Source: Aliiroseovarius sp. F20344 (GTDB lineage Bacteria > Pseudomonadota > Alphaproteobacteria > Rhodobacterales > Rhodobacteraceae). From it: DNA of 64,000 nt. The notes under the pieces were generated by a model that did not search any database, was not told the origin of the DNA, and saw only the letters and a program-made list of their open reading frames with translations. This document shows, one piece after another, positions 50,435 to 64,000 of this stretch; position 1 is the first letter of the stretch, and each line of letters starts with the position of its first letter. The DNA lies in the NCBI RefSeq assembly GCF_023016155.1, contig NZ_JALKBG010000003.1, forward strand, positions 558,001 to 622,000, given 5' to 3'. Position numbers and translations under genes: made by a program.

Positions 50435-51175
50435 ATGACCGATACGCTTGGAAAGCTGTTCGGCTATTTGGGCGGCACCGCCCGCGACCTTGCCCCGATC
50501 CTTCTGATTGTGGGCTTCTTCCAGCTGGTCGTGCTGCAACAACCCATCGACAATCTGGGCCAGTTCGCGCTGGGCTTTCTTTTTGTTCTTTTGGGTCTGA
50601 CGATCTTTATCCGCGGCCTCGACATGGCTTTGTTTCCATTGGGCGAAGCACTGGCGAACGCCCTTGCCTTACGTGGTTCAATCCCGCTTCTTGTTGTCTT
50701 TGCGTTTAGCCTTGGTTTTGGAACCACAGTCGCCGAACCCGCACTGATCGCTGTCGGGGCCGAGGCTGCAACCGTGATGTCTGAGGCCGGCGTGATCGGT
50801 CAAGGCGAGGATGAGCTGAATTTCATGGCGACCGCCCTGCGCTATACCGTGGCTGCATCCGTTGGCGCGTCTTTGGTCTTGGGTGTTTTCCGTATCCTGA
50901 TGGGCTGGCCCATCCAGTGGCTGATCATTGGGGGATATATCTGCGTTGTGGCCCTGACCCCCATCGCCCCGCGCGAGATCATCGGTATCGCTTATGACAG
51001 CGGAGGCGTCACGACCTCGACCATCACTGTGCCGCTTGTAACGGCTTTGGGCGTGGGTCTGGCTTCGGTCATCAAGGGACGGAACCCGATGATTGATGGC
51101 TTCGGGTTAATCGCCTTTGCGTCTCTGATGCCGATCATCTTTGTGCTGCTGTTCGGATTGGTGGTGGCGACATGA
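50435..51175 (+). CDS. DUF1538-family integral membrane protein, first copy
   Basis: This 246-residue membrane protein has about seven hydrophobic segments. It contains the two features shared by both copies: [13 protein letters not shown] near residue 95 and [19 protein letters not shown] near 190. Gly/Thr/Ser-rich re-entrant-like segments of this kind are typical of transporters, but DUF1538 has no established substrate to my knowledge. The ATG follows GCAGGAAGGGGCAT. Its stop overlaps the second copy's start by four bases (ATGA), implying equimolar production. Confidence 0.88.
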
Positions 51176-51969
51176 TCACGATCCTGATGGACCTTCTGTG
51201 GACATTCCTAAGCGTTGTACGTGACGTGCTGCCCATCGCGGCGGTGCTGCTTCTGTTCCAGCTTGTCATCCTGCGCAAGCCGATCCCACATCCCCGCAAA
51301 GTGGCGATGGGAATGTTCTATGTGCTTCTTGGCCTTGCGTTGTTCTTGTCAGGGCTGGAGCTTGCCCTGTTCCCGCTGGGCCGCGAGATGGCGGCACAGT
51401 TGACCGACCCGGCTTTCTTAGGAATTGAACCCGGTGCGGCGGTCGAATGGCTGGATTACTATTGGGTCTATATCTTTGCTTTCGCCATCGGATTTGCGAC
51501 CACGATTGCCGAGCCGTCCCTGATTGCCGTAGCCCTGAAGGCGCAAGAGGCATCTGGTGGGGCCGTGAAGGCCAATGGGTTGCGCATCGCCGTGGCCTTT
51601 GGCGTGGCGATTAGCCTTGCAGTTGGGACATTCCGTATTGTGACGGGAACGCCGCTCTATCAATATATGATCGTGGGCTATGTGATCGTGGTGATCCAGA
51701 CGCTTATGGCCCCGCGCATGATCATCCCGCTGGCCTATGACAGCGGGGGCGTGACGACCTCAACTGTGACAGTTCCGCTTGTCGCAGCGCTTGGCCTTGG
51801 CCTTGCCAGCACAGTCCCCGGGCGTAGCCCGCTTCTTGATGGGTTTGGCCTGATCGCTCTGGCCAGCCTGTTTCCCATGATAACCGTGATGGGTTATGCC
51901 CAAATCAGCAGCTTGCTGTCCCGTCGCAAAACAGCGTCGGACGACGAAGGAGAAAACCATGAAGTTTAA
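51172..51969 (+). CDS. DUF1538-family integral membrane protein, second copy
   Basis: This 265-residue paralogue of the preceding gene shares [16 protein letters not shown] and [21 protein letters not shown], each embedded in hydrophobic helices. The tandem arrangement with a four-base overlap suggests the two are halves of one hetero-oligomeric transporter. Its C-terminus is a short charged tail ([16 protein letters not shown]) and overlaps the start of the P-II-like gene by 11 bases. Confidence 0.88.
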
Positions 51970-52312
51970 ACTGATCATTGTCATGACACAGGATGAACTG
52001 ACGGACACCGCCATCGAAGCCGCCCGTGAAAAAGGGGCGACGGGGTGCACCGTTATCACGTCGGCGCGGGGCGAGGGTTTGAACCCAACCAAGACCTTCT
52101 TTGGGTTGACCGTTGCCGGGCAGCGGGATGTGATTTTGTTTTTGGTTGAAGAACACCACAGCCGCCTGATTCTGGAAACCATTGGCGAAGCGTGCCGGTT
52201 CGATGAAGACCCCGGGACAGGCGTGGCGTTCCAGCTTGATATCGAAGATGCGATTGGCCTGTCGGGTCAAATCGCTTCTATTCAACAGGAAATCAGCAAG
52301 GAGGACTTGTGA
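51959..52312 (+). CDS. P-II-like signalling protein
   Basis: This 117-residue P-II-fold protein begins with the ferredoxin-like strand [21 protein letters not shown]. The region of the T-loop (ARGEGLNPTKTFFGL) lacks the Tyr that is uridylylated in GlnB, so it is not a standard GlnB/GlnK. The position normally occupied by the B-loop reads DPGTGVAFQLDIED. It probably binds a small molecule and acts on the DUF1538 proteins, as GlnK acts on AmtB; this is inference. The ATG follows GAAGGAGAAAACC. It ends one base into the next gene's start. Confidence 0.85.
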   Translation: MKFKLIIVMTQDELTDTAIEAAREKGATGCTVITSARGEGLNPTKTFFGLTVAGQRDVILFLVEEHHSRLILETIGEACRFDEDPGTGVAFQLDIEDAIGLSGQIASIQQEISKEDL

Positions 52313-52716
52313 TGGACGAAAACAATCTAAAGGTCCGCGATGTGATGCAAAGCACGATCTACATGATCAGCGGCTTGGCCACAGTGCGCGATGCCGTAAA
52401 TGAGATGGACGCGAAAGGTGTGACCGCATTGGTAATCGAACGCCGCCATGACGAAGACGAATACGGCATCGTGTCGATCGAGATGATCGCCGAACGAGCT
52501 ATCGCGTTGAACAAGTCTTTGGACCGCACGAATGTCTATGAAGTGATGGACAAACCTGCGCTGACCTTAAGTGACCATATGGCCGTGAAATACGCAGTTC
52601 GTCTGTTGTCGCGGCTAGATCATCGTCGCGCGTTGGTGGTGAACGAGGGAACAGCCTGTGGGCTGGCCACGCTGCGCGACATGGTGCTGAGCTATGCGGT
52701 CGAAAACGACAGCTAG
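52312..52716 (+). CDS. CBS-domain pair protein
   Basis: This 134-residue protein consists of two CBS motifs (about 8-62 and 75-130), for example VRDVMQSTIYMISGLATVRDAVNEM and VMDKPALTLSDHMAVKYAVRLL. CBS pairs bind adenine nucleotides and gate transporters or enzymes. It is co-translated with the P-II-like gene: ATG 52312 overlaps that stop codon and an in-frame GTG is just before it, with CAAGGAGGACTT upstream. It is the last gene of the operon. Confidence 0.9.
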   Translation: MDENNLKVRDVMQSTIYMISGLATVRDAVNEMDAKGVTALVIERRHDEDEYGIVSIEMIAERAIALNKSLDRTNVYEVMDKPALTLSDHMAVKYAVRLLSRLDHRRALVVNEGTACGLATLRDMVLSYAVENDS

Positions 52717-52787: not shown

Positions 52788-53897
52788 TCAGTTGGCTGCA
52801 GCGGCCATCAGCTTTTCGTTATGCTCTCGTAGGGTGTCGGAAATGATGGCGTACCATTCGCCCGACTCACGCATCTCGTTCAGGCCAGCGTTCAACATTG
52901 CGATGTATTGGCGACCAAAGGGGTTGGTGCGGTGGGTCACAAAACGCAAACCCGCAACGGTGTTCACAAATGGGTTCTCGACGATATCTTTCGAGGTCAG
53001 CCCCATATCGCTCATTGCATCTGCTGCGAGTTGAACTTCGAATGAGGCAACATCGGCTTGGCCAGTAAGTACGGCATCCATACAGTCAGTAGCGCTGGTG
53101 GGCTGGACCATCGTCACCTTCGGTTCAAATACACCGTTCTCTTCAAGGTCATGTGTGAACCAACCAGACATACGACAAACACGAGCACCATCGAAGTCTT
53201 GGAATGTGCGTGCTTTGGCATAGTCGCTGTCAGGCAATGTATAGAAGCCGACAACGGTATCATAGACACTCACCGTAGCATCGAATTGTGTGCAACGCTT
53301 CTCGGTCTCGGCTGACCATTCATAGGTGCGGTTGCTACAGTCCGGGATGTACCAAGCCAGCGAAATGTCGAACGCGCCCAATGGCAGCAGTGTATCAAGG
53401 TGCGCGCTCCAATCGTTCACGAAGCTGACCGAATAATCACGGTTGTTCCCGGCGCGGTTCAGCGCTGTCGATACAAGACGAACGAGGAAACCACCGCCTT
53501 TAAGATCTTCATCCGCAAACGGTGCATAGTTGCTGCCCGTTACGATTTTCATGGGCGGTTCGTAGACGTTGGAAACCTTGTTGGTCGCGTTGCGCTCTTC
53601 CTCGGCCGCAATTAGTTCTTGGGCGGACTGTCCGTTGGGCAGGCTGCCGTCTTCACAAGGCAGTGCCAGCACAAGCCCGGTCTCAAGGTTGGATGGGTCC
53701 GAGATGATGTTCCGGTTCGCGTTAAAAATCGGCTGGTAGTTCGACGTGCCATAGGCAGTGATCGAGATCGTCGCCAGCGTGTCGCCATCCTCGATTGTAT
53801 AGTTAGAACAGGCTTCCTGCGCTGATGCAGTGTGGGCGCTAATCGCGGTGAGGGTTACCGCGGCTGCCGCCAGTTTTTTGAGATCGAATTTAAACAT
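52788..53897 (-). CDS. Secreted LysM plus solute-binding (SBP_bac_3) protein
   Basis: A signal peptide (about 1-26, cleaved near ASA-QEA) is followed by a LysM-like domain (about 28-85) framed by Cys (EACSNYTIEDGDTL...LALPC), then a family 3 periplasmic solute-binding domain (about 115-355, starting IVTGSNYAPFADED). Paired cysteines recur in the binding domain (PDC...KRC, CRMSGW, TDCMDAV). The LysM would hold it at peptidoglycan, so it is unlike a free ABC-transporter binding protein, and no permease is nearby. The ATG follows TGGAGGAAGTGGAA. It has 369 residues, and a second copy lies 43 bases upstream. Confidence 0.85.
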   Translation of the reverse strand: MFKFDLKKLAAAAVTLTAISAHTASAQEACSNYTIEDGDTLATISITAYGTSNYQPIFNANRNIISDPSNLETGLVLALPCEDGSLPNGQSAQELIAAEEERNATNKVSNVYEPPMKIVTGSNYAPFADEDLKGGGFLVRLVSTALNRAGNNRDYSVSFVNDWSAHLDTLLPLGAFDISLAWYIPDCSNRTYEWSAETEKRCTQFDATVSVYDTVVGFYTLPDSDYAKARTFQDFDGARVCRMSGWFTHDLEENGVFEPKVTMVQPTSATDCMDAVLTGQADVASFEVQLAADAMSDMGLTSKDIVENPFVNTVAGLRFVTHRTNPFGRQYIAMLNAGLNEMRESGEWYAIISDTLREHNEKLMAAAAN

Positions 53898-53940
53898 TTC
53901 CACTTCCTCCAGAAATAAGATGTGCTGGCCTTCCGGGGCC

Positions 53941-55203
53941 TTAGCCGTTTTCCATTTGATGACGCAGGGCGGTCGCAACGATGTCGCGCCATTCGCCAGA
54001 TTGCTGCATAATTCCAAGGCCTTGATTCAGGATCTCAAGGATCGCTTCGCCGTCGGCATTGGCTTTATGTGTCATGATGTTCAGGCCTTTGATGGCGGCC
54101 AGATTGGGGTTTTCGATGATCCGATGCTCGTATCCCAACCGCTTGATCGCCTCGACCGCTAGATGTGCTTCGACTGCCACGATGTCAGCTGTTCCTTCGG
54201 CCACTGCGTGGAAGCAATCGTCAGGTGATGTAGGACGCATCAGTGTGACCGCAGGTTCGTACAAACCCACGGCATCCATATGGGTCAAAGACCATCCTTC
54301 GGGGCGACAGATGGTTGCACCTGCAAAGTCTGCGTAGCTTAGGGTTTCTTCGTAACCTGATCCTTCCATTGCAAAGAAGGTATCAACCACCTCGTAGAAG
54401 GGTTTTGAGAAGTTGTAGGTCTCACACCGTTCGCGGTCGCTTTCCGACAGGGTGTCAGCCACTGAGCAATCAGGTTGTGACCAAGGGAAAGTCGCATCAA
54501 ATGCAAGGGTCGGCATCAGAAGATCCAGATGCGAGTTCCAGTCGTTCACGAATTGGATCTTGTAGGATTGTTCGGGGGCAGCCCGAAGGAAAGCTGTCTC
54601 GACCAATTTTGTGTACAGCCCGCGATTGGGCAGGTTTTCGTCGGTGAACGGGGCATAGTTGCCACCGGTGATCATCAGGATCTGGCGTTCATTTACCGAC
54701 GCCGCATTTGGGTTCGCTGCGTTGCGGATCAAGGCAGCACCTTCTGCACGGGCGGCTTCGATTGCTTTTTCAGCGTCGGCCTTAGCAGCGGCGACAGCTT
54801 CTTGGCTGGCTTTGACTGCTTCCGCTTCAGCATTGGCAACGCGTGCCTCGGCTTCCGCGATTGCAGCTGCGGCGCGGGCTTCTGCCTCTGCGATCAGTTC
54901 GGCAGACATGGCACGCGCCATTTTCTCGGCTTCAGCGTTGGTTGATACGGTCTGACCTGCGGGCTTCTCGGGGCAAGGCATCGAAAGGGTCATTCCAAGA
55001 CGGATGATGTTTGGGTCCTTGCCAATGGCATCCTTGTTGGCGTTATAGATCGACCGGAAGTCCGAACTGCCGAACACACGCAGCGCGATTTCACGCAGAC
55101 TGTCGCCACGTTTGACCACATAATCCGAGCATGCCTCTTGCGCAAAGGCGGTGCCTGTCATTGCGGTGATAGCCAAACCGGAAGCGATGAATAGCTTTCT
55201 CAT
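53941..55203 (-). CDS. Secreted LysM plus coiled coil plus solute-binding protein
   Basis: This paralogue of the preceding gene has 420 residues. Signal peptide (about 1-21), a Cys-framed LysM-like domain (EACSDYVVKRGDSLREIAL...MPC), then an Ala/Glu/Lys-rich helix with repeated EAEARxA units (about 88-160, probable coiled coil), then the solute-binding domain starting MITGGNYAPFTDENL. The coiled coil distinguishes it from the shorter copy and could make a rod-like spacer or dimer. The cysteine pattern of the binding domain is shared with the other copy. Both are just downstream of the PP2C gene. Confidence 0.85.
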   Translation of the reverse strand: MRKLFIASGLAITAMTGTAFAQEACSDYVVKRGDSLREIALRVFGSSDFRSIYNANKDAIGKDPNIIRLGMTLSMPCPEKPAGQTVSTNAEAEKMARAMSAELIAEAEARAAAAIAEAEARVANAEAEAVKASQEAVAAAKADAEKAIEAARAEGAALIRNAANPNAASVNERQILMITGGNYAPFTDENLPNRGLYTKLVETAFLRAAPEQSYKIQFVNDWNSHLDLLMPTLAFDATFPWSQPDCSVADTLSESDRERCETYNFSKPFYEVVDTFFAMEGSGYEETLSYADFAGATICRPEGWSLTHMDAVGLYEPAVTLMRPTSPDDCFHAVAEGTADIVAVEAHLAVEAIKRLGYEHRIIENPNLAAIKGLNIMTHKANADGEAILEILNQGLGIMQQSGEWRDIVATALRHQMENG

Positions 55204-55236
55204 ATTCCCTGTTATTCCTCAGTTATAAGCTTATTT

Positions 55237-56022
55237 TCAGATGTTTAGCGGCTTGATGACCGCGATTGTGATGTTGTCCTGATCGGGATGGGCCTTGGCC
55301 CTTAACGCCTGAACCAGCGCAACAGCCAGGTCGCGGGCAGGCTGATCTTTGCAGCTGTTTGCAATCGACTGGATGTGATCATCGTCCAGATATTGAAGAC
55401 CATCGCTGGCCGCGAGAAGCACATCTCCCTTGGCAAGTTCAACGGGTGCCTCGGGGCAATCCAGTTTGGGAACAGGCGCTCCCATGATGACCGAAGTTAG
55501 CTGATTGCGATCAGGATGGGCGCGGGCCTCTTCCTCGGACAAAGAGCCATCAGACACCTGCGCATCAATCATCGGCGCCATGGAGTGATCTTCGTTGATC
55601 CGCATCATGAAGCCGTTGCGGCACAGGTAAAGCGGGGAATCTCCAACCGACACCCAATGCAGGTGTTTGCCGCGCAGAAGGACACCCAGCAAGGTTGACC
55701 CCATTTGAAGGTCGGTCCCATTTTTCTGAAGATACTCGGCAACGGCATCGTTGGCGTGTAGGGCCACTTGGGTCAGATGCTCAGCGGCCGTACCGTCGTT
55801 AAACTCTTCACGCTCAAGGATATCATCCAGCTGGGATTGCCACGTGGCCTTCACCAGACCCGAGGCAACATCGCCCGCATCATGACCGCCCATGCCATCC
55901 GCGACAACGACATATCCCGCTTCTATCGCATCAAAGAAACGCGCAGCAATTGCGTCCTCTTGCGTGTCGCGTTTGCCCTGATCGGCCACCAGGGCAATGT
56001 CATATGCAGGATTAGCCAACAT
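55237..56022 (-). CDS. PP2C-type Ser/Thr protein phosphatase
   Basis: This 261-residue metal-dependent phosphatase removes phosphate from Ser/Thr. The metal-binding motifs are complete: DQGKRDTQEDA, VVADGMGGHDAG, WVSVGDSPLYL, LAASDGL and DQDNITIAV. It is soluble with no membrane segment. It begins three bases after the FHA gene's stop, so the two are co-transcribed. With the kinase upstream it forms a phosphorylation/dephosphorylation pair. Confidence 0.94.
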   Translation of the reverse strand: MLANPAYDIALVADQGKRDTQEDAIAARFFDAIEAGYVVVADGMGGHDAGDVASGLVKATWQSQLDDILEREEFNDGTAAEHLTQVALHANDAVAEYLQKNGTDLQMGSTLLGVLLRGKHLHWVSVGDSPLYLCRNGFMMRINEDHSMAPMIDAQVSDGSLSEEEARAHPDRNQLTSVIMGAPVPKLDCPEAPVELAKGDVLLAASDGLQYLDDDHIQSIANSCKDQPARDLAVALVQALRAKAHPDQDNITIAVIKPLNI

Positions 56023-56025
56023 CGA

Positions 56026-56916
56026 TCAGCCGTTCTGCCAGTCGAAGTTTTCGTCACAGAACGACACGAAACGCAGGGTCGTATCGCTGATGCGAATCTT
56101 ATCACCCGTCGACAGGGGTACAGTGCTTAGAACAGGTCCGCCATTCAGGCGCACAAGGTTGGCCTTGCCACCATGCCCCAGATAACAGGTCTGATCTTCC
56201 GAGTTATAGGCAACCACAGCATGACCCGCGCGCGAGATGCCGTTGTCCCCGAAATCAAGCTGAACGGCCTGATCATCATTACGGCCGATCTGGGCAAGAC
56301 CCTCGACCAAGGAAAAGCTGGTCCCGCGACCCGGCCCATCGGTGATTACCAACCAACCGACCGGGAAGGTGTTGGTGGCGACAACCTGTTTGGCAACAGG
56401 ATCGGCTTCCATGCTGTCCTGAACCGGGTTTTCCGGGCGCTCGAAGCCAAGGAAGGTGGTCTTAACGCGGTCACTCCGATCCGATGATGGGGCAGGGGCC
56501 GCGGTAACTTCGGGTTCTTCGTCAGCTTCTGGCGCTTCAGTTAGAGCGATGTCTGAACCAGCATCGGGCAGATCGTCAGTCTGAACGGTTTTGACGACCT
56601 CGCTCATGACTGCCTCGTCAGCATCTTCTGTCATGACGGGGGTGGGTTGCTCAGCTTCCTCGGACACCTCGATCGGCGCAATGTCATCAACATTGATCTC
56701 TTCGATCTGAATCTCTTCTTCGGCGGGCACTTCAAGCTCAGCCTCAACCTCGGACGCTTGGTTGCCTCCGGCCAGAACCTGACGCAACGCAGTCAGATCC
56801 GCGATGGGTTCTTCAGCGGCTTCATCACGCTCTTCTTCTTCATGGGCCTCATCCTTGTCCGCTTTTTTAGCGCTACCTTCGAGAAGCCGACTTAGCGGGC
56901 TTTTGTACTTAAACAT
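56026..56916 (-). CDS. FHA-domain protein with long acidic N-terminus
   Basis: A strongly acidic, low-complexity N-terminal region (about 15-190, many Glu/Asp/Ala) leads to a C-terminal FHA domain (about 205-295, with IGRNDDQAVQLDFGDNGISRAGHAVV). The FHA would bind a phosphothreonine on the kinase or its targets. The Arg of the phosphopeptide-binding site is present (IGRN) and the following SRAGH takes the usual SRxH form. The ATG is preceded by GGTGAAGGTGCC. It is 296 residues from the chosen start. The upstream frame lacks a ribosome-binding site. Confidence 0.9.
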   Translation of the reverse strand: MFKYKSPLSRLLEGSAKKADKDEAHEEEERDEAAEEPIADLTALRQVLAGGNQASEVEAELEVPAEEEIQIEEINVDDIAPIEVSEEAEQPTPVMTEDADEAVMSEVVKTVQTDDLPDAGSDIALTEAPEADEEPEVTAAPAPSSDRSDRVKTTFLGFERPENPVQDSMEADPVAKQVVATNTFPVGWLVITDGPGRGTSFSLVEGLAQIGRNDDQAVQLDFGDNGISRAGHAVVAYNSEDQTCYLGHGGKANLVRLNGGPVLSTVPLSTGDKIRISDTTLRFVSFCDENFDWQNG

Positions 56917-57114
56917 GGCACCTTCACCTTTCACTACACGCCAAGACACCTGCCTTGGCACATGACCGATCATTCCATCCGGGACATTCACCCGGGCAGA
57001 GTTTGACTTTGATACTCAGTTACTTGCTACTTTCTGCAGCGGGTCCAACGACCGCCCGAACCGATACAAGGTTCACAGATTACAGTTTCTGGCAGATGGA
57101 TTTATTGAACAGTG

Positions 57115-59202
57115 TCAGGATCCCCCAGCGAGCTGCATGGGGACCTGAACCTCTCGGCTGTCGCGCAACACGGTCAGGCGGGCTTGGGGCACGCCATCAG
57201 CAACAAGAGCTTCCAGAATACGATCAAGGCTTTCAGCCTCGTTGATGGATTTTTCGGTTGTGGCTTCTGCCAGCAAAACATCACCTTGCTGCAACCCATC
57301 TGTCAATTCAGCCGGAACGCGGGTGACTTCGACATCCCACCCATCATTTGCGTTCTTACGTGCTGAAAGCCCGACGCCATTCTCAAGCCCAAAAATACGC
57401 ACCGCAGGCAGGGCCAGAAGACCGTTTTGCGCACGTGTTGCCCCATTGGCGCGATAGCGCGCTACAGCGCGGACGTGGCCGTCCGGATCGACCTCAAGCT
57501 TCTCAAGCGCGCGCCCTGCAATGCCCGAGCTGTTGGAAACAGGTGTTCCATTGACAGCAAAGATCACGGTGCCGCGGCTTACCCAGTCGCCGATGATCGA
57601 CATATCGCGCTTCGGATCAACGCCGGTGATGACAACCGCGTTGCCGGTGGACAGGCGGCGAACACTTGTTGCGAAAGGAATTTCAACATCCCAGTGCGCG
57701 AAGGACACTTGTTGTTCTTGCAGGTTTACCGGCTCAGTTGATGTGGGTTCTGCCGGGGCTTCGGTGACGACGGGTTCTGCCTCCACCTCGGGTGCGGCGG
57801 CAACGGCGGGCGCCTGAGAGGTCTCCGTTTCGGTTTCCGTTTCAACAGGCTCTGGCGCAGGGGCCTCTGTTGATGTCGCGGCGGGGCTATCAGTTGGACT
57901 GGGTTCGATCGTAGGCACAAGCGCAACCGGGGCGGTGTCTGCCGCAGCGATCTCGGTCGCAGGTGCGTCTTGAGCGTCGCCTGATCCCTTCAATGCGAAG
58001 TAGCCGCCAGCGCCGAGTGCCAGCAGTGCAACCACGCCGATGATCGCTTTGCTGCCCCCGCCTGAGTTGCTTTTAACAACAGTTACGGACGGGTCGCGTT
58101 CTGGCTCTGGTTGAGTGAGCCCTTCAGAGCGCGCGGCTGTTGTTAGGTCCTCTTCGCTGGCCAGAAGGGCGGATACGATTGCCTCTGCATTTTCATTGGT
58201 TTTTTCGGTTTCATCCGGGCGTTCCAACGCCACGATGACCGAACTTGGGCGATACCCGAATTCTTCAAATACAACTGCTGGACCGCGGTACATCCTCAGC
58301 CATTCGAGCGCTGATTGAACACGGTTGACGATGTGAACTTCCATCGCCTTGTCCAGCGCCTCAAGGAAGCCATCGGGATAGCCTTCAAAGCGTCCAGCCA
58401 GCGGGACATATGGGTCTTCCTGACCTGCATTGAAGGCATCTTGCCGGGTTTTTCCGTCGATTGGGCGTTCGCCACTGATCGCGTGATAAAGCGTTGCCGC
58501 CAGAACATACAAATCGCTGGTTGTGTCCTGATCCGCCCCACGCGCATAGAACTCATGAGGCGAGTATCCGTCTTTGATCACACGCAGTGTTAAAAGCGCA
58601 GCGGACCGATTTGCAGCCTGTTCGCGCGCCGCGCCGAAGTCGATCAGGATCGGCTCGCCGTTTTCGTCGATCAGGATATTGTCCGGCGAAATATCGCGGT
58701 GAAGCATTCCGTTGTCGTGGATGAAAGACACCGCCGACAACATCTTTTCCGTCACTTTGACAATGAAGTCTGGCGTGATGTTGTTTCGGTTATCTTGAAC
58801 GTAATCAAGCAGATCACCGCCATTGATCAGATCCATCGCGATATAGGCGGTTTGGTTGTCTTCAAACACCTGATGGACGTTTACGATGTTCGGATGCACC
58901 AACCGGGCATGGTTGCGCGCTTCTTGGATGAACAAGTCGATAATCGAGCGCAGGTCTTCTGCGTAAGCGGGGTCCGCGGCTTCGACCTTCCCGTCAACAC
59001 GGTGGCACAAAGCGCCGGGAAAGCATTCTTTGATAACGACATTCCGGTCCAGACTGTCGCGCGCAAGGTAGGTGATCCCGAACCCGCCATTGTTCAGGAA
59101 GCGAAGGATTTCATACTGACCACGCAGCAGTTTTTCACCCGGCTGCAATGCTGAAATCTGGGGATTTTCAAAATCCCGTCCCGAGGCCTGATTGTGGCTC
59201 AT
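57115..59202 (-). CDS. Ser/Thr protein kinase with membrane segment and PDZ-like C-terminus
   Basis: An N-terminal kinase domain (about 30-300) has the glycine loop NNGGFGITYLAR, the ATP Lys (Lys58 in VVIKE), the catalytic loop HRDISPDN (Asp170) and DFG (Asp188). Then come a spacer, one membrane helix (about 387-405, IIGVVALLALGAGGYFAL), a Pro/Glu/Thr-rich linker, and two beta-rich repeats resembling PDZ domains (about 480-690) that would face the periplasm. So an extracytoplasmic signal could be sensed and passed to the kinase. It is upstream of FHA and PP2C genes, 198 bases away. Confidence 0.92.
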   Translation of the reverse strand: MSHNQASGRDFENPQISALQPGEKLLRGQYEILRFLNNGGFGITYLARDSLDRNVVIKECFPGALCHRVDGKVEAADPAYAEDLRSIIDLFIQEARNHARLVHPNIVNVHQVFEDNQTAYIAMDLINGGDLLDYVQDNRNNITPDFIVKVTEKMLSAVSFIHDNGMLHRDISPDNILIDENGEPILIDFGAAREQAANRSAALLTLRVIKDGYSPHEFYARGADQDTTSDLYVLAATLYHAISGERPIDGKTRQDAFNAGQEDPYVPLAGRFEGYPDGFLEALDKAMEVHIVNRVQSALEWLRMYRGPAVVFEEFGYRPSSVIVALERPDETEKTNENAEAIVSALLASEEDLTTAARSEGLTQPEPERDPSVTVVKSNSGGGSKAIIGVVALLALGAGGYFALKGSGDAQDAPATEIAAADTAPVALVPTIEPSPTDSPAATSTEAPAPEPVETETETETSQAPAVAAAPEVEAEPVVTEAPAEPTSTEPVNLQEQQVSFAHWDVEIPFATSVRRLSTGNAVVITGVDPKRDMSIIGDWVSRGTVIFAVNGTPVSNSSGIAGRALEKLEVDPDGHVRAVARYRANGATRAQNGLLALPAVRIFGLENGVGLSARKNANDGWDVEVTRVPAELTDGLQQGDVLLAEATTEKSINEAESLDRILEALVADGVPQARLTVLRDSREVQVPMQLAGGS

Positions 59203-59519
59203 TTGGTTCTACCTGCGTCTCACTTTTCGGCAGAGGATTTTCTAACCAACGAACCAATTCAACACGGTAAACTCAACCTCTGATGCACCCGAAGTTAGAC
59301 TTAGGAATTGGGACCAAACTGTGGCACCCCCATGACTTACGTATGACTCTGGGCGACAAAGGCGCGAGTATAGCGGCTTTGTTGCTCAAACGAAGAAGAT
59401 CAGAAGGGTGATTTGCGCGTTTTTTGGCAGAGAATCAGGGTGAGATCGAAATTGCGCGTTAGCGGAAACGCCCGGAATCACTTCAGTGATTCTATCGGCT
59501 CTTTCCCCTTTGGCGGGTG
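59203..59519. other. 317-base gap between the kinase and GTPase genes
   Basis: No plausible gene lies here. A small hairpin, GAATCAC / GTGATTC (59475-59492), is 27 bases beyond the GTPase stop on the minus strand but is not followed by a T-run. The remainder before the kinase start is relatively AT-rich and likely holds the kinase promoter; no sound -35/-10 pair is identified. Confidence 0.5.
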
Positions 59520-60794
59520 CTATGCATCTGCCTTTTGCGTTCCGGCCCATGACAGGTTGTCACTCAGCTGTGCCAGCACGTTCAAAACGGCTTCCGAAGC
59601 GTTCGGCGTGTCTTCGAATTGCATCAGTGTCAGCAAGTCAGATGCATTTTCGAACTCACCCACAATCCAGTCGGCCGAGGCATCGATGTTCTTTCCGGGT
59701 TCCAGTTTCATGGTGAACTCGTCGACCATTTCCTGACACACGCGCAACAGTTCAGTTGCCTCAAGTTCGGGCTCTTCGCGCAATTGAGCCTGAAGGTCGC
59801 GCAGCTCGGCCTTCCATTCTTCAAGAACGGGGTTTTCCAAAGGAGCGTCATCTGTCGATGTGTTCGGCGTTGGCGCAGGCTTTGCTTCTTCCGGCTCAGA
59901 CACAACTGTATCCGAGCCGCCCAAAGCGGCAAGCGCGGGGGTCAGCGTTTCATCCAGATCCTTACGGGCTTTCTCGATATCCCGCGTTTTGCGTGTGGCG
60001 GCGAGGTCCAGAATCCGTTTCGCCAGATCTTCACCCCCGCAGGATGCCCACAGCTCGTAATCCGGCTCGGGCTCTTGCTCCATCGCTTTCACAGCGACAG
60101 GGGTGCCAATTGGGACAACCGCTTGAAACAGGTCTTTGCTGTCACGTTCAAGTTGGGGAAGCAGACGGGGAAGCGTTTCGGCAACCACTGGCAAATCCGA
60201 ATGCGTCACAGCCAGCAGGCTGTTTTCCTGCAGCTCCTTCGAAACATGCGACCATAGGAACCGTTCCGTTTCGCGCCATGCATTGGTGCCGTTGGTACAC
60301 CAGATCGCGCAATCAACGAATTTCAGCAGCTCCAGCGTTTGCTTATAGCTCTCATCCAACGCGCCCGATCCCGGCAGATCAAAAAGAACCATTTCTTGCA
60401 GGGCTTCCGCAGGCAACCCGATCGAGATGAAGTCAGGCTCGAACCCGGCGGCTTTTTCAAGATCGATCCCGGCAAAAGTCTGTGGCGAATTTGCCCACCA
60501 GCCGACTGTGGTTTCCAAATCAGCTGCGTATTGCACGATGACCAAAGGAAGTTTCAGATGCTGTGGGCCAGTTGGCAAGATATCGGTGCCTGCCAGCATG
60601 TTTGCCAAGCTGGATTTTCCGGCCCCAAACTCACCCGCAAACCCAATGGTTACGGCACTTGTCAATTGGTCTAGATGGCTTTGCGCCTGCGACCGCATAG
60701 CATCCAGCGGGCCAGATTTCGGCGCAGCCTCAGTTTGGTTCAGAAAAGCTTCCAACTGCTGAATGACAGTATCTGCTTCTGGGAAATTGATCAC
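59520..60794 (-). CDS. Dynamin-like GTPase, small member of a pair
   Basis: This 424-residue GTPase has the P-loop GEFGAGKSSLAN (about 54-65), switch DLPGSG and the base-recognition motif THSD. After the GTPase domain a charged helical region follows, with a long acidic stretch (about 290-330) and helices to the end. No clear transmembrane helix is visible. It starts with GTG at 60794, overlapping the stop of the larger GTPase by four bases (GTGA), so translation is coupled and the two proteins probably act together. Confidence 0.86.
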   Translation of the reverse strand: MINFPEADTVIQQLEAFLNQTEAAPKSGPLDAMRSQAQSHLDQLTSAVTIGFAGEFGAGKSSLANMLAGTDILPTGPQHLKLPLVIVQYAADLETTVGWWANSPQTFAGIDLEKAAGFEPDFISIGLPAEALQEMVLFDLPGSGALDESYKQTLELLKFVDCAIWCTNGTNAWRETERFLWSHVSKELQENSLLAVTHSDLPVVAETLPRLLPQLERDSKDLFQAVVPIGTPVAVKAMEQEPEPDYELWASCGGEDLAKRILDLAATRKTRDIEKARKDLDETLTPALAALGGSDTVVSEPEEAKPAPTPNTSTDDAPLENPVLEEWKAELRDLQAQLREEPELEATELLRVCQEMVDEFTMKLEPGKNIDASADWIVGEFENASDLLTLMQFEDTPNASEAVLNVLAQLSDNLSWAGTQKADA

Positions 60795-62830
60795 TTTGCC
60801 GCCTCGAGTCGCTGTTCAGGTTCGCTCCCCTCTTGGAACAACTCTTCCAGCTCATTTGCAACCCTCTTGGCGTTTTCCAGTGCGTCATGCGCATCAGGAC
60901 GAGAGATCTCGGACGCGAAATCCATTTCCTCGAACCGAACGCCAAGAAGGGCAAGGTGGTGATCAATGACCGACTCCAAGCGCTGTTTCAGATCGGACTG
61001 GAAGCTTGTCGCCAAGTCTTCTGAGATGCTTTGAAATTCGCGCGTGATTAGGTTCTCGGCACGGGCAACAACGGATTTTTGTTTCAGAAGGCGTGCCAGC
61101 CACGACACCCGCAGTTCAATCGTGATCCCGCGCGTCAGGGCGCTTGTGTCGGGCCGATACCAACGCAAGGCGCTGGCATCCACATTCAGCTCGCTGTCCC
61201 AATGCCCATCGTTGAGGTCCTGAAGCGCCGTGTTAGATTGCAAGTCGAGCACGTAAAGTTCGTTCAACATGCTTTGCCGTTGGTCATGTGCTGCGTCCAG
61301 AAGCTGTTCACGCATGGCTTGACGCAACGGTCCAAACTCAAGTTCCGTCGCACCACCCGCACTCAGCAGCGGTGATTTTCCATTTGGCCCCTGAACCACT
61401 TCACGCACCAATGTCTGAACCGTTTCCCTTAGCTGTTCACGCAGCTTATCGACACACTGGTCAGCTTCTGCCGCCAATTTGTCCTGAGTTTCCAGAACCA
61501 TCCTTGTCAACTGGGCAAGTGCACCGCTGTCGGTCTGTTTCGCGATGTGTTCATCAATCGTATCGTTATCAACGATTTTCAGATGGACACGGCGGCGTTC
61601 CAGCTCGTTTGTGGCAAAGTTTCGAAGTTGCTTTGCTGCAATCAAAAGGCGTTCTACGCGCGGACCCTCGGACACTTCACGCACAACATGGCTGCGCAGA
61701 TCAGGAAGGCCCGATGCAATCATTGCAGCAAGGCGCAATGCGCTTTCGGATGCCCCTTCCTTCTGAGATTTCTTAAGCCGCTCGATCCCCTCAAGGAAGC
61801 GTTTCATTTTCCGGGGGTGCGCTTTGAGCCAAGCCAGAATTTGGTCGTGATCAATGCCGGTCTTGTCGCCGGTCAACGCATAATGCGCCCACTGCGCGCT
61901 GCCCATAATCACGGTCAGTTTGGCGCTGTCCAAGGTGCGTTCAAGCCCCGCGCGAACTTCGGCATGCACGTTTGCAGCGTCTTTGACCCCACGGTTCAGC
62001 TCGTCCACGCGGTTCACGAAGACAACCATCTGTCCTAGCTCAAGCGCCTGCATCAGCCGCAGAAGTTTCAGGTCAGCTTGCGATAATGCCTGATGCGCTG
62101 ACAGAACCACCACAAAGAAATCGGCATTACGCAGATGTTGGTGCGAGATCTCTTCGCGGATCAAAAGCGGATCGTTGATGCCGGGCGTGTCGGTAACCGT
62201 CAGTGGAAAGGGAAACAGGCCCTGTTCAAAGAACACTTCTGCTTTCCGCGTCAGATCGCTGTAGTAGGGGGCCGCGTTTTCATCCGACTGCGCGGCTTCA
62301 TCCTCCGGGTCTGCGCCTGCGCTGACATAACGGGCGAGGTCGTCTTGTGTCAGATCCTCGAAATCATGCGCCGTGCCCAGAAGTTCTTCATATTGCGAAC
62401 CAAGGCGCTTTTGGGCGCGGGTCTTCATCGCCTCGATCTGTTCTTCGATGATCTGCCGCTTATAGTCGTCTTCGACATCCGGCAGCATGTCACGGATCTC
62501 ATCCCCTTCGGTCAAAAGCGCCCGCCATTGCGCGTTGTCGAAGAAGTGAAAAAGACCACCTGACACACGTCCAGATGGGTGCCCGAAATGCATATCCGTC
62601 ACGACGGTGGTCCAGGGGTTTACATCAGACGGCAGGAAATCTGCTTGGCCGGTAAAGCCATTGATCAGCCGGGATTTCCCGGCTTTGATCTGTCCAACAA
62701 AGGCGATGCCGGGTTTCAGCGATTGAAGGTCGGACAGGATTCGCGCAATGAACGGCTGCGTTTCTTCGCGTGCCGTTTCCGCCATTCTTTCGGCGACCCG
62801 AATTAAATCCTGTCGACGGACCTCATCCAT
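60791..62830 (-). CDS. Dynamin-family GTPase, large member of a pair
   Basis: This 679-residue protein has a P-loop GQIKAGKS (46-53), the switch DTPGINDP and the base-recognition NRVDE. The GTPase domain carries a helical insertion (about 110-200), and long helical segments follow (about 330-679) as in bacterial dynamin-like proteins that bind membranes. Paired dynamin genes occur in other bacteria. The ATG follows GGAAG. It is the upstream member and overlaps the smaller GTPase. The order in this cluster is unknown gene, large GTPase, small GTPase, kinase. Confidence 0.88.
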   Translation of the reverse strand: MDEVRRQDLIRVAERMAETAREETQPFIARILSDLQSLKPGIAFVGQIKAGKSRLINGFTGQADFLPSDVNPWTTVVTDMHFGHPSGRVSGGLFHFFDNAQWRALLTEGDEIRDMLPDVEDDYKRQIIEEQIEAMKTRAQKRLGSQYEELLGTAHDFEDLTQDDLARYVSAGADPEDEAAQSDENAAPYYSDLTRKAEVFFEQGLFPFPLTVTDTPGINDPLLIREEISHQHLRNADFFVVVLSAHQALSQADLKLLRLMQALELGQMVVFVNRVDELNRGVKDAANVHAEVRAGLERTLDSAKLTVIMGSAQWAHYALTGDKTGIDHDQILAWLKAHPRKMKRFLEGIERLKKSQKEGASESALRLAAMIASGLPDLRSHVVREVSEGPRVERLLIAAKQLRNFATNELERRRVHLKIVDNDTIDEHIAKQTDSGALAQLTRMVLETQDKLAAEADQCVDKLREQLRETVQTLVREVVQGPNGKSPLLSAGGATELEFGPLRQAMREQLLDAAHDQRQSMLNELYVLDLQSNTALQDLNDGHWDSELNVDASALRWYRPDTSALTRGITIELRVSWLARLLKQKSVVARAENLITREFQSISEDLATSFQSDLKQRLESVIDHHLALLGVRFEEMDFASEISRPDAHDALENAKRVANELEELFQEGSEPEQRLEAAK

Positions 62831-62918
62831 TAATTGGCTTCCACCCCTAACTTAAAGAAACTCCATCCCCGTGCATCGCGCGTAAAAATGCGAGACGCTG
62901 AAGTATTCAGCTAAAATT

Positions 62919-63746
62919 TTACTTTGCAGTCAATGATTTCCACATTTGAACAACCGCACCAAGCCTTCGTGTGTGATGAACAACCATCGCCGTTGCATCA
63001 ATATCACGGCAAATTGTCAAACTTGGCGTCTCTTCTCGACATGACCGCAGGATCACTAACTGAGGTGATGCTTCTTGGCCGCCATTTTCAGCATCCCAAG
63101 TTGCGAGATCATCCATCAACTGCCCAACTGCATCCAAATTTTGCGTCAGAACACCATCAGGTCCCGCGACTGCGGTGTCATCATGGCCAATCAGAATTCG
63201 TTGATCGGTAATTTTCTTGGCTTCAGAATGGAAGCTTGCCGCCAGTCCACACGCCTCGTTTAAGACAGCAGGTTTATCTAATGCTGTGTCAGCGTCAGGC
63301 GCTGCCTCGTCATGGAACAGCTCCATCACATCAAAGGCGCCTTCGATCTCAGAAGTTGGAATGCCAGTCGCGGCAACTTCGTCCGTGTTGTCGGGCGGGG
63401 TGCTGTGTAATTTCAAGCCTGTCCCCGAACAAATCATCGCCAGTATTTGCGCGACATGTTCCGCCGTAGTTTCGGGCGTGTTGGATTGCACGCCGTCCAT
63501 AGCCGTGTCCGACATGGACGCAACACGGCCATTGTTTACAGAAAGCGTTACGGCATCTTCTTCATCATTGCTGATTTGGATCATGCGGGGAAGGATGGTG
63601 GCGTGGACAATCTCGATGGCAGCCAAGCATCGCGCCTCGGTTGATGTGTGGTTTAGGTGAATGCTTTGATCACCCCGTGCAACGGTGTTGTCCACGATGT
63701 CAGTGAGCCGAGAAAGAATATCGCTCTGTTCCATCACCATACCCAT
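62919..63746 (-). CDS. Unrecognised acidic protein upstream of the GTPase pair
   Basis: This frame of about 275 residues has no family I can name. It is soluble, without signal peptide or membrane segment; the middle is rich in Asp, Glu, Thr and Ala (about 90-180), and the ends are more structured, with EARCLAAIEIVHATILPRM near 40 and a C-terminal TAMVVHHTRRLGAVVQMW. Several nearby starts are possible (ATG 63746, 63740, 63734); none has a strong ribosome-binding site. It lies a few bases after the stop of the upstream gene and 88 bases before the large GTPase, so it probably belongs to the same transcription unit. Confidence 0.65.
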   Translation of the reverse strand: MGMVMEQSDILSRLTDIVDNTVARGDQSIHLNHTSTEARCLAAIEIVHATILPRMIQISNDEEDAVTLSVNNGRVASMSDTAMDGVQSNTPETTAEHVAQILAMICSGTGLKLHSTPPDNTDEVAATGIPTSEIEGAFDVMELFHDEAAPDADTALDKPAVLNEACGLAASFHSEAKKITDQRILIGHDDTAVAGPDGVLTQNLDAVGQLMDDLATWDAENGGQEASPQLVILRSCREETPSLTICRDIDATAMVVHHTRRLGAVVQMWKSLTAK

Positions 63747-63752
63747 CCGCAA

Positions 63753-64000
63753 TTAAACCGAAGCCGAAATAGCGTTCAGATTTGCCGCAGATTTAGCCAG
63801 CGCCAACCCAACATTTGTATCACCGTCAGAAACGAAACAGATCAGGTGGTCCGGCTGATCCTCTCGTCTGAGAAGCACGTAAAGCCGCCCGCCCGAATAG
63901 ATCGCGATTTCACCAAACCCAGTACTCGAAGCGTCTTTGTCGTCGGACAACAACTCTTCGAATGTGCGCACACCTTGTCCCAAAATCAGATTGGCGACAG
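63753..64000 (-). CDS. C-terminal end of a possible roadblock/LC7-domain protein (partial)
   Basis: The frame is open from the window end to a TAA at 63755-63753, giving 82 residues including two strand-rich segments (FGEIAIYSGGRLYVLLRRED and HLICFVSDGDTNVGLALAKS). The pattern of two beta strands followed by a final helix that begins NVGLALAKSAANL resembles the C-terminal half of roadblock/LC7 domains, which in other systems regulate small GTPases. The identification is tentative because the N-terminus is missing. Confidence 0.5.
   Translation of the reverse strand, partial: VANLILGQGVRTFEELLSDDKDASSTGFGEIAIYSGGRLYVLLRREDQPDHLICFVSDGDTNVGLALAKSAANLNAISASV

Follow-up and report, generated by a model that had tools for sequence, protein, structure and literature searches.

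A minus-strand gene cluster containing 12 genes was identified in Aliiroseovarius sp. F20344, at the end of a 64,000-nucleotide stretch referred to here as the window (contig NZ_JALKBG010000003.1; G000:C3:558001-622000). The cluster runs on beyond position 64000, and positions above this value are given as window-equivalent coordinates. In the order of transcription, the genes are U11, D10, d9, R, U8, D7, d6, K, F, P, S2 and S1. The genes D10, d9, D7 and d6 encode dynamin-like GTPases, R a protein of predicted Roadblock/LC7 fold, K, F and P a Ser/Thr kinase, an FHA-domain protein and a PP2C phosphatase, respectively, S2 and S1 secreted proteins resembling LysM and solute-binding proteins, and U11 and U8 proteins of no known family. 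An initial annotation of the window had described eight minus-strand genes from 52788 to the edge. All of the genes it named are present on that strand, but its own list holds nine, the ninth being the edge-cut gene at 63753-64187. It had also proposed extending the sequence past 64000, and the cluster indeed continues there: two more dynamin-like genes, again forming a pair, are followed by the small gene U11. This pair and the Roadblock protein lay outside its view and were therefore missed.

The gene d6 (59520..60794) encodes a small GTPase of 424 aa with the motifs GEFGAGKS, DLPG and THSD, and D7 (60791..62830) encodes a large GTPase of 679 aa with the motifs GQIKAGKS, DTPG and NRVD. A second small and a second large GTPase are encoded beyond the window by d9 (64187-65803) and D10 (65809-67821), respectively. 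Dynamin_N was recognized in all four proteins with 36.3 to 50.9 bits against a Pfam cut-off of 27 (E 7e-9 in d6 and 2e-13 in D7). The G1 and G3 motifs are canonical in all four GTPases, and G4 reads NRxD, TRSD or THSD instead of the usual [NT]KxD. The genes D7 and d6 overlap by 4 bases, in agreement with the earlier description of two translation-coupled dynamin-like GTPases. Only 3 bases separate U11 from D10 and 5 bases D10 from d9, and the stop codon of d9 overlaps the start codon of R (TGATG). Among solved structures, the D10 profile was nearest to 5owv (E 6e-12, positions 214-473), which we take to be Campylobacter DLP1, and to the bacterial dynamin-like protein BDLP (2j68, E 7e-8). A WWxx[WF] motif, found in 110 of 129 D10-type open reading frames (ORFs) and in 10 non-dynamin ORFs among the 10,409 ORFs scanned, is a possible membrane-insertion loop of the D10 type.

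The gene R (63753..64000, on to approximately 64187; L003:11753-12187) encodes a protein of approximately 145 aa. R and 16 relatives gave no meaningful Pfam match, and Robl_LC7 was matched by none of the 17 cassette members and by none of four R relatives from outside the Rhodobacteraceae. Likewise, R had no NCBIfam match and no convincing match among PDB sequences (best chain, a sorting nexin, E 0.09). A Ruegeria relative sharing 57 identical residues with R of the window was modelled with AlphaFold2 from 24 sequences, with a pLDDT of 89.7 and a pTM of 0.82. The elements of the model are arranged as helix-strand-strand-helix-strand-strand-strand-helix, plus one additional helix behind the second helix. 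A fold search of the PDB with this model gave 87 matches with E <= 0.001, and the 50 of them that were listed are all of the Roadblock type, judged by title or known identity of the entry, with 3kye, a Streptomyces Roadblock, as the best (E 2e-7). The matches listed include Streptomyces Roadblock, MglB of Thermus and Myxococcus, MglC, Ragulator and archaeal Roadblocks. R is predicted from this model to adopt the Roadblock/LC7 fold and is probably a dimer. Independent support for the fold comes from two loci of another proteobacterial family (L204 and L205, the two covered by a neighbour scan), in which R relatives adjoin proteins that match Robl_LC7 with 29.7 and 33.2 bits against a cut-off of 23.

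The gene U8 (62919..63734) encodes a protein of approximately 271 aa that belongs to no Pfam or NCBIfam family. In its structural model (271 residues; pLDDT 83, pTM 0.57), the second half shows a Roadblock-like order of elements. Its fold matches comprise Mon1-Ccz1, presumably a longin, as well as Roadblock proteins and others (best E 0.0055, none at 0.001), which hints at a Roadblock/longin-like protein. That U8 is a second copy of R was considered and not established, as a comparison of the two profiles gave no alignment (E 0.15) and the fold match is weak. The gene U11 (67825-68331; L003:15825-16331), which opens the cluster in this lineage, encodes a small conserved protein for which a domain search found no known family. 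It is present in 61 of 80 named loci, these being the top 80 among 496 stretches that matched and including many from Ruegeria.

The gene K (57115..59202) encodes a 695-aa kinase with a Hanks-type Ser/Thr kinase domain (Pkinase, E 5e-31) that carries the HRD loop as HRDI. One hydrophobic helix lies near residue 386, and the C-terminus is weakly PDZ-like (E 0.069, below the cut-off). The gene F (56026..56916, with a possible earlier GTG start at 56991) encodes an FHA-domain protein of approximately 296 aa (E 9e-6, 26.5 bits against a cut-off of 20.7), and P (55237..56022) encodes a 261-aa PP2C phosphatase (PP2C_2, E 4e-12) that also matches a Stp1-like NCBIfam model (E 2e-40, below that model's cut-off). 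The three Pfam matches exceed their cut-offs, and the identities first given to these genes are upheld. A pattern scan located the motif RVKTTFLGF upstream of the FHA domain in F (56443..56469). Its general form, K[ST][RST][FLI][LIV]GF, precedes the FHA domain in 78 of the 86 FHA ORFs of the cassettes, and none of the remaining ORFs among the 10,409 scanned has it; of the eight FHA ORFs without it, four have close variants, one has none and three are 213-aa ORFs. The motif may serve as a site of phosphorylation or of docking. GarA and OdhI carry N-terminal phosphothreonine motifs of which it is reminiscent, although the letters differ.

The distribution of the cluster was determined in an even sample of 248 Rhodobacteraceae genomes. 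A D7 relative occurs in 61 of these genomes and R in 53, and all 53 R-positive genomes are dynamin-positive (p 6e-46). The search model for R was built from 17 of the sample genomes, and without them 36 of 36 R-positive genomes still carry a large dynamin. Of 58 R matches, 52 have a dynamin match no more than 6 kb away. One further R match lies 8 kb and another 3 Mb from a dynamin match, and the last four are on contigs that have none. A locus sample was composed of the window and of 40 stretches fetched from the 60 other dynamin-positive genomes, 39 of which are represented. Of these 41 loci, 30 contain R and 26 contain U8; the kinase, FHA and PP2C genes are all found in 24, and in 22 of these alongside R. 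The full kinase set thus stands beside R in 22 of the 30 Roadblock loci, and R is present in 22 of the 24 loci with the full set. The other two (L045 and L059) reach a contig end at the cassette, and their genomes carry R on a different contig; both are counted among the 11 loci without R. A common gene order is K-F-P-small GTPase-D-d-R-U8, from which that of the window differs. Among the 80 named loci, 69 have R together with U8; the 11 that do not include several short contigs. The nearest named relatives by D10 identity are from Aliiroseovarius (89-91%) and Ruegeria (72-74%). The co-occurrence that the initial annotation had proposed to check was found for the kinase set, which stays beside the dynamins; gene order and strand vary, and LysM genes are rare in the locus sample. 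Because S2 keeps its distance and strand in all near relatives, as described below, and the core is found again in many genera, the recurrence of the cluster is more than chance.

The gene S2 (53941..55203) encodes a secreted protein of 420 aa and S1 (52788..53897) one of approximately 369 aa, whose start likely lies near 53897-53903 rather than at 54017 as first assigned. Both genes called LysM/solute-binding in the initial annotation are present, but their domain matches fall below the cut-offs. SBP_bac_3 scored 16.7 and 21.2 bits in the two proteins (cut-off 26.4), and LysM scored 18.5 bits in S2 only (cut-off 20.9). Further weak support for LysM comes from NCBIfam PRK11198 (E 1e-9 and 3e-6, below that model's cut-off) and from LysM/Kbp structures compared with S2 (E 0.001-0.009). 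S1 adjoins S2 in relatives. The position of S2 relative to the dynamin gene, in distance as in strand, is unchanged in 25 of 25 near relatives, which belong to Aliiroseovarius and Ruegeria or are Roseovarius albus and strain KLH11. This position check covered 34 genomes, of which 32 had some S2 match and 28 agreed; three of the 28 were set aside as more distant, namely L130 and L140 (S2 genes within the locus) and L135 (contig unverified). S2-type genes lie within the limits of 7 of the 80 named loci; most of the 80 end before that place. In the locus sample, LysM/solute-binding genes occur in 3 of 41 loci, the window being one, which argues against a peptidoglycan-sensing core. The sampled family kinases were also compared by a crude test for membrane helices (19-residue hydropathy window, threshold 1.2). 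Six of the 24 scored at least 1.95, one 1.54 and 17 at most 1.14, including one kinase truncated at a contig end, so that 17 have no clear membrane helix. Among 60 kinases longer than 400 aa from the named loci, mainly near relatives, only that of L146 scored below 1.8. A periplasmic receptor is therefore lineage-specific at best.

Relatives of R were also sought outside the family. In a class sample of 337 genomes, which held few family members, the D10 profile at E 1e-20 and R each matched two genomes, both of the same family. The limitation of the R family to Rhodobacteraceae at which this sample hinted was refuted by a phylum sample, in which R was found in 40 of 398 genomes, 6 within the family and 34 outside. 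Of 18 R loci fetched from the latter search, the two same-family ones (L211 and L212, found by R alone) contain the whole set, and among these 18 the R-dynamin link stays confined to the family. Outside the family, R relatives are single or in tandem (L204 6454-7396, L205 9325-10850, L206 9036-10041 and L208 9960-10977). An ORF near those of L204 and L205 resembles, by eye, a phosphotransferase-type kinase. Close R relatives in L199, L201 and L202 (E 1e-33 to 1e-37) adjoin an ABC-transporter ATPase-like gene without dynamins, which is another Roadblock context. Among the matches listed from plasmid records, D10 relatives over at least 94% of the length are found in five Ruegeria, 12 Leisingera and one Rhodobacter, and two further listed records gave weak D10 matches. 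A single-sequence search of plasmid records found R only in the five Ruegeria plasmids. In a plasmid of Rhodobacter sp. CZR27 (L194 817-8844), a sensor histidine kinase gene comes after an uninterrupted run of four dynamin-family genes.

The genes flanking the cluster were assigned by eye. On its far side, cytochrome c-like and phosphate symporter-like ORFs on the plus strand are followed by a leuB-like ORF on the minus strand. In the window, positions 50435-52716 (plus strand) encode two neighbouring membrane proteins that resemble each other (246 and 265 aa), then a small P-II-like protein and a CBS-like one, a set that looks like a transporter with its regulators.

Because the R-dynamin link is tight, the genes overlap and a kinase-FHA-PP2C set is present, a phospho-switched dynamin machine is favoured. 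With slightly better than even confidence, we read the cluster as an accessory module, conserved in Rhodobacteraceae, in which several dynamins would remodel membranes under phospho-control and under their own Roadblock regulator. The GTPases, arranged as large-small pairs, would form the membrane-remodelling machine, and R together with its companion U8 would govern their GTPase cycle or placement. K would phosphorylate a component of the module, F would read the phosphothreonine and P would reset it. Physical contacts between the products, the direction of control and its enzymatic nature are likewise putative. In the lineage of the window, the kinase has a membrane anchor and a periplasmic part and two secreted LysM/solute-binding proteins are present in addition, and the input there therefore probably comes from the cell envelope. 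The likely use would be inner-membrane repair or reshaping under envelope stress. Control of membrane GTPases by their phospho-state, as proposed in the initial annotation, remains the most plausible mechanism, but peptidoglycan sensing is not retained as its core, given the 17 of 24 kinases and the 3 of 41 loci mentioned above. A more specific version is put forward tentatively, at somewhat less than even confidence: a dedicated Roadblock dimer, together with FHA-read Ser/Thr phosphorylation, would set the GTP cycle of the dynamins, with U8 as a second Roadblock/longin-type subunit, as a prokaryotic counterpart of the eukaryotic Roadblock/longin-kinase control of membrane GTPases.

Several observations weigh against the module. 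R is not present in eight of the 61 genomes that carry the dynamin, and the phylum-sample search found no R match in a genome of the same genus (G822). The 16 R loci outside the family showed no match to any other cassette protein, dynamin or kinase set, so that the R family as a whole is not specific to dynamins. None of the 58 D7-type ORFs carries the WWxx[WF] motif, and both the weak fold matches of U8 and its failed alignment with R count on the same side. Six of the 30 R loci (L036, L039, L040, L046, L048 and L053) have no kinase-set gene in the fetched stretch and two (L060 and L065) have a partial set, so phospho-control may not be obligatory. In the window, d6 and K are separated by 317 bases, and more than one transcript is therefore possible.

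The six loci without kinase-set genes and the 317-base gap also agree with at least two separate functions that are neighbours only, namely dynamin-Roadblock, phospho-signalling and LysM units. The same holds for L126, L127, L128 and L133, in which the kinase set and LysM genes lie on the strand opposite to the dynamins. Against this explanation, the kinase set remains beside the dynamins despite changing gene order and strand, in sampled loci that were all selected via a dynamin or R. We regard mere neighbourhood as unlikely, though it is the strongest of the competing explanations. Anti-phage defence, in which the dynamins would act on the membranes of infected cells and the kinase would sense infection, is also considered improbable. 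A PADLOC scan of 10 of the 12 proteins (S1 and S2 left out) gave weak LeoA/LeoBC matches to all four GTPases (best per protein E 4e-5 to 2e-11) and matches of PD-T4-6 (E 4e-45) and mad6 (E 3e-43) to the kinase. The patchy distribution of R, with its lack of a match in G822, and the copies on plasmid records would also suit defence. However, the best kinase matches fall in the kinase domain, the GTPase matches do not exceed 41.5 bits and none to LeoA/LeoBC is convincing (these models have no cut-off in the table used), and FHA, PP2C, R, U8 and U11 match nothing in PADLOC at E 0.01. The window-flank ORFs look metabolic by eye, defence islands not having been searched for. A role of the cluster in regulating an ordinary type VI secretion system, whose PpkA, PppA and Fha form a comparable trio of kinase, phosphatase and FHA protein, is highly improbable and is rejected: F has no Pfam match specific to type VI secretion, and the search for type VI genes that the initial annotation had called for found no TssC in the organism's own genome (100% complete) and none in 36 of the 53 R-bearing genomes, the remaining 17 comparing with 12 expected (odds ratio 1.8, p 0.10) and TssC occurring in 57 of the 248 family genomes and in 20 of the 61 dynamin-positive ones (p 0.05, a weak excess).

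The module resembles several known systems in part. Bacterial dynamin genes are mostly paired, according to an excerpt of PMC6104087. The large GTPases DLP1/DLP2 of Campylobacter and BDLP are encoded in pairs, whereas the present cluster has two large-small pairs, plus R, U8 and phospho-genes, and its small partner is mainly a G domain with a long tail. MglB acts as the GAP of the Ras-like MglA, as stated in an excerpt of PMC9481161. In MglA/MglB and other Roadblock-GTPase pairs, as here, a Roadblock-fold protein is encoded alongside GTPases; in contrast, R escapes Robl_LC7 of Pfam, the GTPases of the cluster match Dynamin_N, and domain scans recognized no MglA-like gene. The Streptomyces conservons also combine a sensor kinase, a Roadblock protein and a GTPase in one operon, and the best fold match of R is from the same genus. 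Here, however, the kinase is of the Hanks type with FHA and PP2C proteins instead of histidine-kinase-like, and the GTPase is dynamin-like instead of Ras-like. No description of a dynamin-Roadblock or kinase-dynamin operon was found in excerpts of open-licence papers.

A public Ruegeria plasmid record annotates R and U8 as hypothetical proteins, and a predicted fold is now assigned to the gene family of R. To our knowledge, little is known of the regulation of bacterial dynamins, which would gain an assayable switch if the proposed control is true. Roadblock proteins are regulators of Ras-like GTPases, and a fixed R-dynamin partnership would, if true, widen the range of GTPases under Roadblock control.

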